From: Chitinophaga pinensis DSM 2588
Lineage (GTDB): Bacteria > Bacteroidota > Bacteroidia > Chitinophagales > Chitinophagaceae
DNA length: 64,000 nt
Direction: 5' to 3'
Assembly: GCF_000024005.1 (NCBI RefSeq)
Contig: NC_013132.1
Location: 3,590,001 to 3,654,000, forward strand
In this document: piece after piece, positions 2,702 through 12,780 of the stretch
How positions within the stretch are numbered: position 1 is the first letter of the stretch
Layout: every line of letters starts with the position of its first letter
Notes under the pieces: generated by a model
The model's input: the letters and a program-made list of their open reading frames with translations, nothing else
What the model was told of the DNA's origin: nothing
Database searches by the model: none
Program-made: the position numbers and the translations under genes

Positions 2702-3943
2702 ATGATGAAGTATCTCGTATGGGCCATGTTATTATGTAGCTCACCTGCCATGGGGCAAACTTCCCTGACGCTGGAAGACTGTTATCAGCTGGCGCAAAAG
2801 AACTATCCGCTCATCCGGCAGCGGGAACTGATCAGCAAAGCCGGTGCTTATAATGTGGCCAATGCCGCTAAAGGCTATCTGCCACAGCTGAATTTCTCCG
2901 GACAGGCTACCTATCAGACGCAGGTAGTAGCCATCCCCATTCCAGGCGCCCCGGAGATCAGCAAGGACCAGTATAAGGTCCAGGCAGAAGTTACACAAAC
3001 CATTTTTGATGGAGGTAATATTCATTATCAGCAGGAACTCAGTAAGGCAAACACCGTTGTTCAGCAACAACAGCTGGAAGTCAACCTCTTTAATATCCGG
3101 GAACGGGTCAGTCAGCTCTTCTTCGGTATCCTGTTGATAGATGAACAGCTCCGGCAGAACCAGCTCAGAAAGGAAGACATCCAGAGCGGCGCGCATAAAA
3201 CAGAGGGAGCTGTCAACAATGGCACCGCCTTACGTAGTAGCCTCGACGAACTGAAAGCGGAGATCCTTAACACCGATCAATCCACTACACAGCTGAAAAC
3301 CAACCGACAAGCTTACCTGCAGATGCTGGGACTCTTTATCAATCAGTCCCTGGATAACCAGGTCCGGCTGGTACGTCCTGCACAGACGCCCTTATCCCCC
3401 GAAATACGCAGGCCGGAACTATTACTGTATGACTATCAGCAGAAAAGCCTGGCCATCCAGGAAAAACAGCTGAAAGTGAGTTACCTGCCAAAGGTCAATG
3501 CATTCGTACAGGGCAATTACGGCCGGCCTACTCTTAATATCGTAAGCAATGATTTCGGTTTTTACGGAATAGGCGGGGTCCGCTTCAGTTGGGCCCTGGG
3601 TAGTTTATATACCAATAAGAACAGTAAACAGCTGCTGCGCATCAACCATCAGGATCTGGATGTACAGAGAGAAACCTTCCTCTTTAATACAAAGCAGACC
3701 ATGATCGGTCAACAGATGGAAGTGGCCCAGTACACCGATCTTATACAGAAAGACCTGGAAATCATTGATCTGCGTACTTCCGTAAAAAAGGCAGCAGTCG
3801 CACAACTGGAAAACGGGGTTATCACCTCGCACGACTATATCAGTCAGGTGAATGCTGAAAACCAGGCCAGACTATCACTCGTCCTGCATGAGATACAATT
3901 GTTGCAGGCACAGTACAATCATAAAAACACATCAGGTAACTAA
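2702..3943 (+). CDS. TolC-family outer membrane efflux protein
   Basis: 413 residues. A signal peptide (hydrophobic YLVWAMLLCSSPAMG followed by QTSLTLEDCYQLAQ) leads into the typical TolC start, where LTLEDCYQLAQKNYPLI is the conserved first helix. Long glutamine-rich helices with VQQQQLEVNLFN and the second repeat IQEKQLKVSYLPKVNAFVQG are characteristic of the OEP family. It would form the outer membrane channel for the HlyD/ABC transporter encoded downstream. ATG codons at 2702 and 2705 are both possible starts. The HlyD gene follows after 19 bases, so they are probably co-transcribed. Confidence 0.92.
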   Translation: MMKYLVWAMLLCSSPAMGQTSLTLEDCYQLAQKNYPLIRQRELISKAGAYNVANAAKGYLPQLNFSGQATYQTQVVAIPIPGAPEISKDQYKVQAEVTQTIFDGGNIHYQQELSKANTVVQQQQLEVNLFNIRERVSQLFFGILLIDEQLRQNQLRKEDIQSGAHKTEGAVNNGTALRSSLDELKAEILNTDQSTTQLKTNRQAYLQMLGLFINQSLDNQVRLVRPAQTPLSPEIRRPELLLYDYQQKSLAIQEKQLKVSYLPKVNAFVQGNYGRPTLNIVSNDFGFYGIGGVRFSWALGSLYTNKNSKQLLRINHQDLDVQRETFLFNTKQTMIGQQMEVAQYTDLIQKDLEIIDLRTSVKKAAVAQLENGVITSHDYISQVNAENQARLSLVLHEIQLLQAQYNHKNTSGN

Positions 3944-8843: not shown

Positions 8844-8876
8844 GACCGGGATAGTCTTATCCCGGTCCTTTTATTT
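8844..8876 (+). terminator. Intrinsic terminator of the efflux operon
   Basis: GACCGGGATA (8844-8853) pairs perfectly with TATCCCGGTC (8858-8867) across a 4-base loop and is followed by a T-rich tail. It lies between the convergent permease and MocR genes. Confidence 0.85.
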
Positions 8877-10302
8877 ATGATAGCTTTCTGATAAGTCTGC
8901 CCAGTGTTTTGAGTCCGTCGTCCATCTGTTTGCTCCAGGGATTACTATAGCTGATACGCATACAGTTTGTATAACGATCCTGTAAAGAGAATATCCTGCC
9001 GGGTGCAAAAGATATCTTATGCTTGATTGCCTGTTCATACAACTCATATGTATTCACTTTCGGATTCAGTTCCACCCATAGTACAAAACCTCCCTGCGGA
9101 CGAGACACGCAGCAATCCTCCGGAAAATACTCTCTGATCGCCTGCAGGTGTCGCATATACTGTGTATGCAGGGCTTTACGCATTCCTCTCAGGTGATGCT
9201 CATAGCGGTCATTTTCGAGGAAACAGGCAATTGCTGCACCCGGAAGGGAAGGAGAGGAGATAGAGTGATGCCTTTTCAGGTTCAGTACTTTCTCCAGGTA
9301 TCTGCCGGGAATTGTCCAGCCTACACGATAACCCGGTGCGACGGACTTGGAAAAGGAATTACATAACAACACAAGTCCATTGGTATCGAAAGTTTTGCAG
9401 ACACCAGGACGTTCTTTACCAAAGTACATATCCCCATAAATATCGTCCTCTATTAATGGGATCTCATATTTCTCCAGTAACCTCACCAGTTCACGCTTAT
9501 GTGTGTCCGGCATACAGGCGCCCAGCGGATTGGTGAAATTGGTCACAAAGAGACAGGCTTTGATCTTAAACTTGGGAATAGCCTTATCCAGGTATTCCAG
9601 GTCGACCCCTGTACCAGGATGCGTAGGTATTTCCAGCACCTTCAGTCCAAGCGTTTCTGCCAGCTGGAGGGAACCATAATACGCCGGGCTTTCAATCGCA
9701 ATCGTATCTCCCTGTTGCGTAACGGCTGACAAACAAAGTGTCAGCGCATCCATACAACCACTTGTAGTAACGATCTCATCTTCACTGACAGCACCACCCC
9801 ACAGAATAGAATTACGGGCTATTTGTCTGCGGAGATCAGGATTCCCCTGCACAGGCTCATATCCCACACCCGCAAAAGGTGTTTTCCGCAGCGCCTGTAT
9901 AAGTGCTTTAGAGATTTTGGCAGCCGGCAACATCGACTCCGGCGGCGCAGCAGAAGCAAACCGGGTAATATTTTCCAATCTCATATCCTGAGAAACCTGT
10001 GTCACCATTTCATGCACAGTAACCTCCGAAGGCTTTTTAACAGCCTCACAGACTTTAGGCATCTCCGGCATCCGCCGCGGACTAAAGATGACATAGTACC
10101 CCGACTTAGGACGGGATTCAATAAGTCCCTTCGCTTCCAGATGATAATAAGCCTGAAAAGCAGTACTCATACTAACTCCCTGTTCCTCGCTCATGGTACG
10201 AACAGAAGGAAGCTTGTCTCCAATTTTCAATACGTCTTTGGCAATAAGTTGCTCCAGTTTGTCGGCAATCTGAAGATAAAGATGTTCAGCGGTTTTTAAC
10301 AT
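8875..10302 (-). CDS. MocR-family regulator (GntR HTH plus PLP-binding aminotransferase domain)
   Basis: 475 residues. A GntR winged helix (about 1-75; VLKIGDKLPSVRTMSEEQGV) is fused to a full fold-type I aminotransferase domain. Unlike the MocR protein at the left end of the window, this one keeps the PLP lysine, in NSFSKSVAPGYRVGW (Lys319). ATPase-like or other extra domains are absent. Its promoter carries two copies of an ACTGATCTGGT-like motif, and variants of the same motif lie before the PLP-dependent decarboxylase gene 2.5 kb away. The decarboxylase/exporter operon is therefore a probable target. The effector is unknown; an amino acid or amine is plausible by analogy with GabR and TauR. 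Confidence 0.92.
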   Translation of the reverse strand: MLKTAEHLYLQIADKLEQLIAKDVLKIGDKLPSVRTMSEEQGVSMSTAFQAYYHLEAKGLIESRPKSGYYVIFSPRRMPEMPKVCEAVKKPSEVTVHEMVTQVSQDMRLENITRFASAAPPESMLPAAKISKALIQALRKTPFAGVGYEPVQGNPDLRRQIARNSILWGGAVSEDEIVTTSGCMDALTLCLSAVTQQGDTIAIESPAYYGSLQLAETLGLKVLEIPTHPGTGVDLEYLDKAIPKFKIKACLFVTNFTNPLGACMPDTHKRELVRLLEKYEIPLIEDDIYGDMYFGKERPGVCKTFDTNGLVLLCNSFSKSVAPGYRVGWTIPGRYLEKVLNLKRHHSISSPSLPGAAIACFLENDRYEHHLRGMRKALHTQYMRHLQAIREYFPEDCCVSRPQGGFVLWVELNPKVNTYELYEQAIKHKISFAPGRIFSLQDRYTNCMRISYSNPWSKQMDDGLKTLGRLIRKLS

Positions 10303-10359: not shown

Positions 10360-10507
10360 CCGCATTTTGGGGTGTTATACACTCCAGGATATTGCCGATA
10401 CACACCATATAAGCCACAGTATGATACGTAAGCATAGCAATTACCCAGACTTAGGCTCACTCCCTATTGTTATAGAAAAACAATAAATCAGTTATCCGAC
10501 AGTATCT

Positions 10508-10568
10508 GCTTTGGGTTTCAGATGGAGCCAAAGGGCTTTAGCCCGTCGGCCCATCTGAAACCCAAAGC
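10508..10568. repeat. 61-bp inverted repeat with 18-bp perfect arms
   Basis: GCTTTGGGTTTCAGATGG at 10508-10525 is exactly complementary to 10551-10568. The 25-base centre can fold further (GGGC..GCCC nested inside GCC..GGC). A degraded copy of the right arm seems to lie at about 10630-10665 (CGGCCATCTGCAACTC). No T run follows, so this is more like a REP-type or palindromic dispersed element than a terminator. The 505-base gap 10303-10807 otherwise holds only the MocR operator and the operator array before the ArsR-Ada gene. Confidence 0.7.
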
Positions 10569-10758
10569 AACGCCCCTGTCTCAACCAGTCCTTCAAACAG
10601 GTGATACCACAAATAGCTAGGACACCAGTCCATCGGCCATCTGCAACTCTAAACGACGCCAATCCTTTAAACGTCTCATACCTCCCAATAACTATTAACC
10701 TAAACCCCCAGGAACCACCTCAATCGCCTCAACTAGGTAATTTCATACGAAATATATT

Positions 10759-10808
10759 TTGCGCAACTATAAAATTGCATAATTTTATGCAACTAAAAAA
10801 TTGCGCAA
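10759..10808. promoter_or_regulatory. Three-palindrome operator array with 21-bp spacing
   Basis: TTGCGCAA (10759-10766), TTGCATAA-TT-TTATGCAA (10775-10792) and TTGCGCAA again (10801-10808) have centres exactly 21 bp apart, which is two turns of B-DNA, so a regulator would bind the same face at all three. The last base of the third site is the A of the ATG start codon. The natural candidate is the ArsR-Ada protein encoded immediately downstream. Confidence 0.75.
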
Positions 10809-11338
10809 TGGACGAGCTATTTAAAGGCGTCGCCGATCCGGTAAGAAGAGAAATCCTGTCACTGCTGCGTCTGCAGCCGCTAAACGTGAACCAGATCAAC
10901 GAGCACTTCAAGGAGATCTCTCGTCAGGCAGTTTCAAAACACTTACAATTCCTGGAAGAAAGCGGCTGGATAAAGATCTACCAGGCTGGCAGAGAACGCT
11001 ACGGTTATCTGAATAAAGCCGCATTTTATGCACTGAAAGAGTGGCTGGACGCTTATCTCCAATGGGGAGAACGCTCGCTGGAGAACGATCACGGCGTGTT
11101 CGTGGAAGAGGCTGCATACAAGCAGGGATCGCCGCTAACCCAACCCGTGATGCTGCAGGCTATGCTGAGTAAGGATAAAGATTTCGACGGACTTTTCTAC
11201 AACGCAGTCAGGACTACCGGTATATTCTGCAAGCCCTCTTGCTTTGCAAATCCACGTCCGGATAACGTAACATTTTACATCACCAGGGAAGAGGCATTGA
11301 AAAACGGATATCGTGCCTGCAAACGCTGCAAGCCCTGA
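10808..11338 (+). CDS. ArsR-type HTH fused to an Ada metal-binding (methylphosphotriester sensor) domain
   Basis: 176 residues. Residues 1-85 are an ArsR/HTH_20 winged helix (MDELFKGVADPVRREILSLL; then ISRQAVSKHLQFLEESGWI). Residues 120-176 match the N-terminal zinc domain of Ada: VRTTGIFCKPSC (Cys141, Cys145), NVTFYITREEAL, and CKRCKP (Cys171, Cys174). In E. coli Ada this Cys4 zinc site takes a methyl group from DNA phosphotriesters and turns the protein into an activator, but its DNA-binding part is an AraC HTH. Here the AraC part is replaced by an ArsR one. I chose ATG at 10808 because the domain starts there; the frame is open further upstream without similarity. AlkA and Ogt genes follow in the same orientation, giving a split Ada regulon. 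Confidence 0.88.
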   Translation: MDELFKGVADPVRREILSLLRLQPLNVNQINEHFKEISRQAVSKHLQFLEESGWIKIYQAGRERYGYLNKAAFYALKEWLDAYLQWGERSLENDHGVFVEEAAYKQGSPLTQPVMLQAMLSKDKDFDGLFYNAVRTTGIFCKPSCFANPRPDNVTFYITREEALKNGYRACKRCKP

Positions 11339-11354
11339 CAAAACCAGGAAACAC

Positions 11355-12263
11355 ATGAAGAACAGCCGATTGATACATATACCTGTTACAGATCATGATA
11401 ACTTCTCATTCGCAGAATGCCTGGTGTTTCTGAGCAGATCGGAGAAAGAATGTCTGCACTATGTACAGGATAATGCGGTACAGAAAATGGTGATATCCAA
11501 CGGACACCCTGTATTGCTGGAAATCAGTGATGATCCTGCTGCCAAGGCATTGAAGGCAAGGGTGCTGGACGGACCTGGCGAAGACATCGACGACGCGCAT
11601 ATTATAAAGTATATCAGCCATTGGTTACACCTGGAAGCTGATTTGCGGCCATTTTATAAGTTCGCAAAGAAGGATGCTGTCTTAAAGCCATTAGCTGACC
11701 GTTATAAGGGATTGCGACTGATCGGCATTCCTGATTTGTTTGAAGCGCTGACATGGAGTATTACCGGACAACAGATCACCCTGGGATTCGCCTATACATT
11801 ACGGCAGCGGTTTATCCAGGCATTCGGTCATCACGCTGTAATAAATGGGAAAGACTATTATGTCTATCCACATCCGGCAGTAGTTGCATCACTGGAACCT
11901 GCGTCATTGATAGCCATGCAGTTCTCACGTAGTAAGGCGGACTATATCATAGGACTGGCAAAAGCGATGACTGGTGGTCTGCTGACGGATAAGCAGTTAT
12001 GGGAAATGGATTACCAGCAGGCAAGAGCGCATCTGATCTCTTTCAGGGGGATTGGTAACTGGTCCGCCAATTATGTGCTGATGAAATATCACCGTCATCA
12101 CGAGGCATTACCGCTGGAGGACGCCGGACTACATAATGCGTTGAAGCAACAGTTACAGCTGACAGCTAAACCGTCGCTGGCAGACGTAAAAGCATACACA
12201 GGGCATTGGCGGGAATATGCCGCATATGCCACCTTTTATTTATGGAGATCATTAATGCAATAG
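11355..12263 (+). CDS. alkA: DNA-3-methyladenine glycosylase II (AlkA-type HhH-GPD)
   Basis: 302 residues. The helix-hairpin-helix is ISFRGIGNWSANYVL (about 228-242), followed by LPLEDAGLH, in which Asp256 occupies the place of the catalytic aspartate of AlkA. WSITGQQITLGFAYTLRQRF is the conserved central helix of the family. The protein should excise alkylated purines such as 3-methyladenine. It starts with ATG 17 bases after the ArsR-Ada stop (the frame also opens upstream inside that gene). It lacks the Ada-type N-terminal domain, which is encoded separately by the preceding gene. Confidence 0.9.
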   Translation: MKNSRLIHIPVTDHDNFSFAECLVFLSRSEKECLHYVQDNAVQKMVISNGHPVLLEISDDPAAKALKARVLDGPGEDIDDAHIIKYISHWLHLEADLRPFYKFAKKDAVLKPLADRYKGLRLIGIPDLFEALTWSITGQQITLGFAYTLRQRFIQAFGHHAVINGKDYYVYPHPAVVASLEPASLIAMQFSRSKADYIIGLAKAMTGGLLTDKQLWEMDYQQARAHLISFRGIGNWSANYVLMKYHRHHEALPLEDAGLHNALKQQLQLTAKPSLADVKAYTGHWREYAAYATFYLWRSLMQ

Positions 12264-12291
12264 TGTTATAACATCTTCAATACTGATTATT

Positions 12292-12780
12292 ATGACGATA
12301 GAACATATCCATATTATTACTACGCCGGTAGGGTCTCTGACGATTATTGGAAATGACCATGCGATCAATACGCTCACTTTTAAGGAAGGAAGAGTCCCTA
12401 CACAGGAGCCACTATCCGATATCATGCTACAATGTGTGGAAGAAATAAATGCTTATTTCGCAGGTAGTTTACAGGGATTCAATTTTCCGGTTGCACAACC
12501 AGGAACCGAGTTCCAACAAACAGTGTGGCAACAACTGAAAGACATCCCGTATGGCCAGACGATCTCCTATCTGCAGCTGGCTAAACGTATCAATAATCCG
12601 AAGAGTATCCGTGCGGTAGGGACGACTAATGGCAAGAACAGGATTGCAATCGTAGTACCTTGTCATCGTGTAATAGGCAGCGATGGTTCGCTGACCGGAT
12701 ATGCAGGTGGATTGTGGCGCAAGAAATGGCTGCTGGAGCATGAAATCAAACAGAAATTCGGTTCACTGGAGCTGTTTTGA
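12292..12780 (+). CDS. ogt: Methylated-DNA-protein-cysteine methyltransferase (Ogt/AGT)
   Basis: 162 residues, a normal AGT length. The active-site motif is VVPCHRVIGSDGSLTGYAGG with acceptor Cys124. The HTH region has FQQTVWQQLKDIPYGQTISY and the arginine-finger region has NNPKSIRAVGTTNGKN. It repairs O6-methylguanine by suicidal methyl transfer. It lies 28 bases after alkA and probably belongs to the same operon. With the sensor and glycosylase genes it reconstitutes the functions of the adaptive response. Confidence 0.93.
   Translation: MTIEHIHIITTPVGSLTIIGNDHAINTLTFKEGRVPTQEPLSDIMLQCVEEINAYFAGSLQGFNFPVAQPGTEFQQTVWQQLKDIPYGQTISYLQLAKRINNPKSIRAVGTTNGKNRIAIVVPCHRVIGSDGSLTGYAGGLWRKKWLLEHEIKQKFGSLELF

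Follow-up and report, generated by a model that had tools for sequence, protein, structure and literature searches.

An Ada zinc domain fused to an ArsR winged helix in Chitinophaga: a candidate autorepressor of an alkylation-repair operon

Introduction

Can the methyl-accepting zinc domain of Ada be coupled to a repressor instead of an activator? This question is raised by a locus of Chitinophaga pinensis DSM 2588. According to a first-pass annotation of this DNA, the Cys4 domain of Ada is joined here to an ArsR-type helix-turn-helix (HTH), AlkA and Ogt follow as separate genes, and the fusion protein could be a derepressor. I analysed the 64,000-nucleotide stretch that carries the locus (hereafter, the window), which corresponds to positions 3590001-3654000 of a single-contig genome of 9,127,347 bases (G000, contig C1).

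The HTH behind the zinc domain of E. coli Ada is taken here to be of the AraC type, and Phe114, His115, and Arg118 presumably lie in it. As described in the available part of a review on Ada, these three residues contact the GCAA of the B box, and Arg45 and Arg71 contact the A box (PMC4437013). Cys38 takes the methyl group from Sp-methylphosphotriesters, and the site becomes almost neutral, which allows sequence-specific binding (PMC4437013). The methylated protein binds the A and B boxes and activates the ada, alkA, and aidB genes, while at more than 200 molecules per cell Ada negatively regulates the ada promoter (PMC4437013). ArsR does not occur in the available text of the same review. No description of an ArsR-Ada fusion was found among the titles listed in a literature search that misses most subscription journals.

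Results and Discussion

The fusion protein and its operon

The features of the locus are listed in Table 1. The fusion protein has an ArsR HTH at residues 9-53 (HTH_5, 36.6 bits; HTH_20, 32.6 bits) and an Ada_Zn_binding domain (PF02805, 88.2 bits) at residues 116-176, all above the Pfam cut-offs. The cysteines at positions 141, 145, 171, and 174 are the only ones in the protein; none lies in the ArsR half or anywhere else ahead of residue 141. The quartet aligns with the cysteines of the CRPSC and CKRC motifs of E. coli N-Ada (PDB 1adn, 62.6 bits). Both this quartet and a linker motif, NDHGVF (residues 93-98), are unchanged in the 23 intact copies of ArsR-Ada found in this study. Thus, at the sequence level, it was confirmed that an ArsR winged helix and an Ada zinc domain are joined in this protein, as the first-pass annotation had it.

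How does this protein compare with the two families? The winged HTH of the ArsR/SmtB family is present (HTH_5 and HTH_20), and a palindromic operator is predicted over its own promoter in 25/25 arrays. A Cys-based metal site within the ArsR fold is absent, and such a site is a trait of some ArsR/SmtB members, not of every one. Two ArsR family profiles match under their cut-offs, namely NCBIfam NF033788 (52.3 bits, cut-off 55) and NF033789 of SdpR (47.5 bits, cut-off 100). As for Ada, the zinc domain with its four Cys ligands including the methyl-acceptor Cys is present, and an AraC-type HTH was not found; HTH_5, HTH_20, and a third match below the cut-off, HTH_11, were the only HTH matches by Pfam. 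The ArsR half resembles PDB 3f6o by sequence and also by a Foldseek search with an AlphaFold model of low confidence (mean pLDDT 65.8). The Foldseek fold matches include several metal and sulfide sensors, and no N-Ada structure is among the 50 matches listed. In view of its pLDDT, the model was set aside as evidence on a switch.

Table 1. Features of the arsR-ada locus (positions in the window)
Feature	Position	Strand	Basis and remarks
MocR-like GntR-aminotransferase regulator gene, divergent from the operon	8875..10302	-	Profile matches
Putative -33 element, TTTG	10758..10761	+	Separated by one base from unit 1 and by 18 bases from the putative -7 element
Operator unit 1, GCAACTATAAAATTGC (GCAA-N8-TTGC)	10763..10778	.	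Kept in 25/25 arrays; between the putative -33 and -7 elements
Putative -7 element, TAATTTTA	10780..10787	+	Agrees with TAnnTTTG at 5/6 fixed letters; lies between units 1 and 2
Operator unit 2, GCAACTAAAAAATTGC (GCAA-N8-TTGC)	10789..10804	.	Kept in 25/25 arrays; spans the predicted transcription start (10792-10793)
arsR-ada fusion gene	10808..11338	+	176 aa; Pfam profile matches, Cys positions
alkA, 3-methyladenine DNA glycosylase II family	11355..12263	+	HhH-GPD and OGG_N over the cut-off; AlkA_N under its cut-off
ogt, O6-alkylguanine-DNA alkyltransferase	12292..12780	+	Profile matches; PCHR motif at residue 123

The claim that AlkA and Ogt are encoded by separate downstream genes also holds. 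The order and the strand of arsR-ada, alkA, and ogt are the same in the window and in all 24 relatives fetched. The window AlkA aligns to E. coli AlkA (PDB 1diz) across the region of the catalytic aspartate, and by eye this aspartate seems to lie within LPLED, from residue 252 onward.

The locus resembles the E. coli adaptive response (ada, alkA, alkB, and aidB) in the Cys quartet of the zinc domain and in the association with AlkA and an O6-alkylguanine transferase. It differs in that the HTH is an N-terminal ArsR winged helix and not an AraC-type HTH behind the zinc domain, the transferase is a separate gene, the operators lie over the putative core promoter, and the position of Arg45 is changed. 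Bacillus AdaA is another point of comparison, being composed of a Zn domain and an AraC HTH with no transferase. A protein make-up of this type exists in the phylum (L189, 188 aa; L190, 179 aa). In AdaA-type proteins the sensor is separate from the alkyltransferase, as in ArsR-Ada, whereas their HTH is AraC-type and C-terminal and that of ArsR-Ada is ArsR-type and N-terminal.

Distribution of ArsR-Ada and classical Ada

Is the fusion common in Chitinophaga and in other lineages? A full ArsR-Ada was found in 25 of the 79 genomes of the genus. It is uninterrupted in 23 of them, split by a frame break in G036, and disrupted by stops in G046. Outside the genus, no ArsR-Ada was found among 394 genomes of the family (E ≤ 1e-15; the sample includes genus members) or among 395 genomes of the phylum (E ≤ 1e-20). 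A weak match spanning both domains, in G251, is a pair of separate ArsR and AHSA1-like genes. A close-relative scan of named genomes gave 13 loci, 11 of which are titled Chitinophaga. The other two are a MAG titled Flavihumibacter, which likely corresponds to G070 of the genus Chitinophaga, and a Mycobacterium contig whose match is limited to residues 81-125. Among plasmids, 357 records match ArsR-Ada, two of them across at least 80% of the query, and one of these two is, by its ORFs, again a separate ArsR and AHSA1-like pair. The phage search returned 11 records, none across 80% of the query. In sum, the fusion was looked for in one phylum, in named genomes by the close-relative scan, and among plasmids and phages, at thresholds below which a strongly diverged fusion could fall.

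The Ada domain itself was found in 41 of 296 phylum genomes (E ≤ 1e-16). Besides that of the window, there are four short Ada frames in these genomes (182-202 aa), each starting with the Zn domain, and the two that were scanned are AraC-type. In the genus, 40/79 genomes have a full Ada domain apart from ArsR-Ada (at least 97 bits); its frame is at least 346 aa long in 39 genomes and 245 aa in G074. One classical Chitinophaga Ada, scanned with Pfam, consists of a Zn domain, an AraC-type HTH_18, and a transferase. Only one of the 79 genomes, G024, has both ArsR-Ada and a separate Ada, while 15 have neither type, including G064 with an interrupted Ada domain. The mutual avoidance of the two types gives P = 4e-9 by Fisher's test over the 79 genomes, with kinship ignored. 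Classical Ada is missing in 24 of the 25 genomes with ArsR-Ada, which suggests that its role in regulation has passed to ArsR-Ada. At positions 7282826-7282960, the window genome has a second Ada-like zinc domain, a short one (L002; a 96-aa open frame, 32.5 bits), and similar weak matches exist in many genomes of the genus.

The N-termini of 16 classical Ada proteins of the genus were compared by residue with the 23 intact ArsR-Ada copies. The position equivalent to Arg45 of E. coli Ada is Asn, in a loop shorter by one residue, in 23/23 ArsR-Ada proteins, and it is Arg in 15 and Lys in one of the 16 classical proteins. This change fits the idea that the reading of the promoter may have moved from the Ada domain to the ArsR domain. 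However, the equivalent of Arg71 is kept in ArsR-Ada (in CKRC) and is replaced by Val, Ile, or Lys in 16/16 classical proteins, which is at odds with a simple argument from Arg45.

The operator array and the putative promoter

The first-pass annotation had described three palindromes at intervals of 21 bp in front of the fusion gene, the last one over the start codon. They are indeed present in the window: TTGCGCAA at 10759-10766, TTGCATAATTTTATGCAA at 10775-10792, and TTGCGCAA again at 10801-10808. Their centres (10762.5, 10783.5, and 10804.5) are exactly 21 bp apart, and the third palindrome overlaps the ATG of arsR-ada by A10808. However, the register is not conserved. Among the 25 ArsR-Ada arrays, that of the window included, 15 retain the left outer TTGCGCAA palindrome and four the right one, and the three-palindrome register was rejected as a functional unit for this reason. 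The conserved units are the two GCAA-N8-TTGC sequences in Table 1, whose centres are 26 bp apart in 19 arrays and 27 bp apart in six. The strict tandem pattern was found in 64/79 genomes of the genus. Since the reversed control pattern was found in 0/79, the tandem pattern is not due to chance. As far as can be judged from the alignments, the operator is real and consists of two 16-bp units around the putative -7 box.

Bacteroidetes promoters have TTTG at -33 and TANNTTTG at -7, and in F. johnsoniae 4-5 nt lie between the -7 box and the start, as stated in the available part of PMC6847099. The same F. johnsoniae paper describes the -33 motif as much less evident and proposes a revision of the box to TAHHTTTG (PMC6847099). 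Among the 25 ArsR-Ada arrays, 23 have TTTG within 6 nt before unit 1, and upstream of TTTTG the conservation fades. At least five of the six fixed letters of TAnnTTTG are present in the spacers of 23/25 arrays (mean 5.1 and maximum 12 in shuffled spacers), the exact sequence in only three. In the arrays of the ArsR paralogs described below, exact TAnnTTTG is found in 43/46 spacers (shuffled: mean 2.0, maximum 7), and TTTG stands just before unit 1 in 36/46. The gap between TTTG and the box is 20 in 29 of the 34 paralog arrays that have both elements, and 18 in the window. The position of the array over the putative promoter elements is the geometry of a repressor, and repression by ArsR-Ada is supported by these sequences.

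Does the operator occur elsewhere in the window genome? Six sites match the close pattern GCAAYT-N4-ARTTGC, and two of them are the array; as the pattern was derived from the array itself, weaker sites could be missed. Three of the other four sites are within ORFs and one is just after the EF-Tu gene. Thus, no second repair target was seen in the window genome, and a larger regulon there was rejected on the basis of this search.

ArsR paralogs with the same array

In total, 66 tandem-site loci were read (30 + 36 among the matches listed; further ArsR-Ada arrays were not taken again). In 57 of them, an ArsR gene lies no more than 160 bp downstream, and this gene encodes ArsR-Ada in 11 cases and a protein without an Ada domain in 46. 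Since 46 of the 57 ArsR genes behind the array lack the Ada domain, the array belongs with the ArsR half and not with an Ada box. The GCAA of the E. coli B box was considered as the source of the motif and rejected; the same GCAA units precede the 46 Ada-less genes. These 46 paralogs (in L072-L137) share the tandem GCAA-N8-TTGC operator and are of the same HTH family as ArsR-Ada (36-44% identity by blastp). By eye, an AHSA1-like gene follows 44 of the 46, and a scan of seven partners identified six as AHSA1 and one as DUF1579. The tandem array around the putative -7 box appears to be a promoter-operator module common to the genus Chitinophaga. ArsR/AHSA1 pairs thus resemble the ArsR-Ada locus in the HTH family and in the operator. 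They differ in that they have no Ada domain and are followed by an AHSA1-like gene; such a gene is absent behind ArsR-Ada, and alkA and ogt are there instead.

In these 57 loci, the base after GCAA tracks the residue after QA(V/I)S in the recognition helix. With Lys, the base is C in 103, T in 24, and A in one half-site; with Arg, C in three and T in one; and with Leu, G in 86 and T in 10. Lys or Arg with G, and Leu with C, were never met in the 57 loci. The match between Lys/Leu and C/G needs one change on a tree with weak support, and it is therefore a matter of consistency, not replication.

No ArsR-like sequence was found in the fetched stretch of the remaining nine of the 66 loci (L075, L083, L094, L095, L108, L128, and L138-L140). 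L138-L140 are one site with a different core, recurring in three genomes, and this site was attributed to chance. By eye, L083 and L094 lie ahead of AHSA1-like ORFs. The arrays of L075, L095, L108, and L128, with no ArsR-like gene nearby, are possibly targets in trans. Apart from these, L104, upstream of an ArsR paralog at 6035689 in the window genome, has by eye a two-unit layout with GTAG...CTAC half-sites, and the recognition helix of this paralog reads RPTVSKH instead of RQAVSKH.

A proposed mechanism and its alternatives

I propose, with a probability of roughly 0.6, that ArsR-Ada represses its own operon, arsR-ada/alkA/ogt, and is released when its Ada domain is methylated or bound to a lesion. 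The ArsR winged helix would sit as a dimer on each GCAA-N8-TTGC unit around the -7 box and exclude RNA polymerase. The zinc-thiolate of Cys141, as the conserved quartet suggests, would accept the methyl of a methylphosphotriester in DNA, or that of the methylating agent itself, like Cys38 of E. coli Ada. The methylated or lesion-bound protein would then let go of the operator. Its release may come from the methylated domain, which would distort the ArsR dimer or compete with it, or from lesion-bearing DNA, which would pull ArsR-Ada off. AlkA and Ogt would be made and would remove 3-methyladenine and O6-methylguanine, respectively. With new, unmethylated ArsR-Ada also produced from the operon, repression would return once the damage ends. 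As for the earlier suggestion of a derepressor instead of an activator, its repressor part has gained ground from the units over the putative promoter, while derepression by methylation, like the methyl switch as such and its direction, is what I infer.

The main rival is a methylation-dependent activator as in E. coli. Since methylation allows sequence-specific binding in E. coli Ada, according to the available part of PMC4437013, methylated ArsR-Ada could bind the array tighter, and it would recruit RNA polymerase, just as methylated E. coli Ada activates from its A and B boxes. An ArsR has also been reported as an activator in E. coli, in the available part of PMC12821715. However, both units overlap the putative -33/-7 region and the start, as they do in the paralog arrays, the 25 ArsR-Ada arrays have no conserved site in common farther upstream, and the paralogs that carry this array are laid out like self-controlled ArsR/AHSA1 pairs. 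An activator is disfavoured by this geometry, and I regard it as unlikely. The same geometry would suit constitutive autorepression, which would keep expression of the repair operon low and involve no switch at all; the Ada domain would then be only a methylphosphotriester repair enzyme that the fusion tethers. This reading is rather doubtful, considering that in 25 genomes the sensor is fused to what is likely the repressor of the very repair operon that encodes it, and that classical Ada is absent from 24 of them.

ArsR-fold proteins often sense metals or thiol chemistry, and metal and sulfide sensors are among the fold matches. Might the Cys4 zinc site sense another signal, such as a metal, an arsenical, an oxidant, or another electrophile? 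This is very unlikely: the ArsR half has no Cys, the Cys4 domain matches Ada (88 bits, and 62.6 bits to N-Ada in the PDB), and the operon partners are alkylation-repair enzymes in 25/25 cases. As for a frame or assembly artefact joining two genes, the broken frames in G036 and G046 might point to one, but 23 copies run uninterrupted over the full length and have the linker motif unchanged. Since 25 of the 79 genomes hold the fusion and all 25 keep the operon order, ArsR-Ada is not an artefact, and the chance of one is negligible. The concern, raised at the outset, that the Ada-like domain might come from a frame or sequencing error was ruled out in this way.

Thus, the autorepressor released by methylation or lesions is the preferred reading, and ArsR-Ada is an Ada sensor with a different output domain, probably of the opposite sign. 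I lean slightly towards a broader picture, in which this is an adaptive response of reversed sign: a suicidal methyl acceptor would itself be the repressor, methyl transfer or lesions would release it, and fresh repressor would reset the system. Such a circuit would have arisen within Chitinophaga from an Ada sensor and the output of an AHSA1-type ArsR autorepressor. If true, the adaptive response of E. coli is reversed here, with the same sensor chemistry and a repressor output, and a cell that lacks the regulator by chance would be on, not off. Single-cell work in E. coli, in the available part of PMC8643705, describes a noisy adaptive response and heterogeneous alkylation repair. With a repressor-based design, the dynamics of the response would be different, and the circuit would fail in the on state. 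Such a design would also mean that an HTH of another family can serve as partner of the methyl-switch module. A further point of interest is the shared operator layout of Chitinophaga ArsR genes, two 16-bp units around the putative -7 box.

Variation in and around the operon

In some relatives, repeats or other sequences lie between arsR-ada, alkA, and ogt. In L148, about 0.6 kb of repetitive sequence (3164-3757) separates arsR-ada from alkA. In G034, alkA and ogt are about 1.3 kb apart, with other sequence in between (L163, 4047-5344), and thus ogt may have left the operon in this genome. The AlkA of L143 (3290-4375) has an in-frame repetitive insertion of LNGSNRLKELKGPRGL-like units. On the upstream side, the divergent MocR-like regulator gene adjoins the operon in 23 of the 24 relatives fetched, and it is probably outside the ArsR-Ada system. 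Between this gene and the operator array, the window has a perfect 19-nt inverted repeat (10507-10569), whose arms are 25 nt apart.
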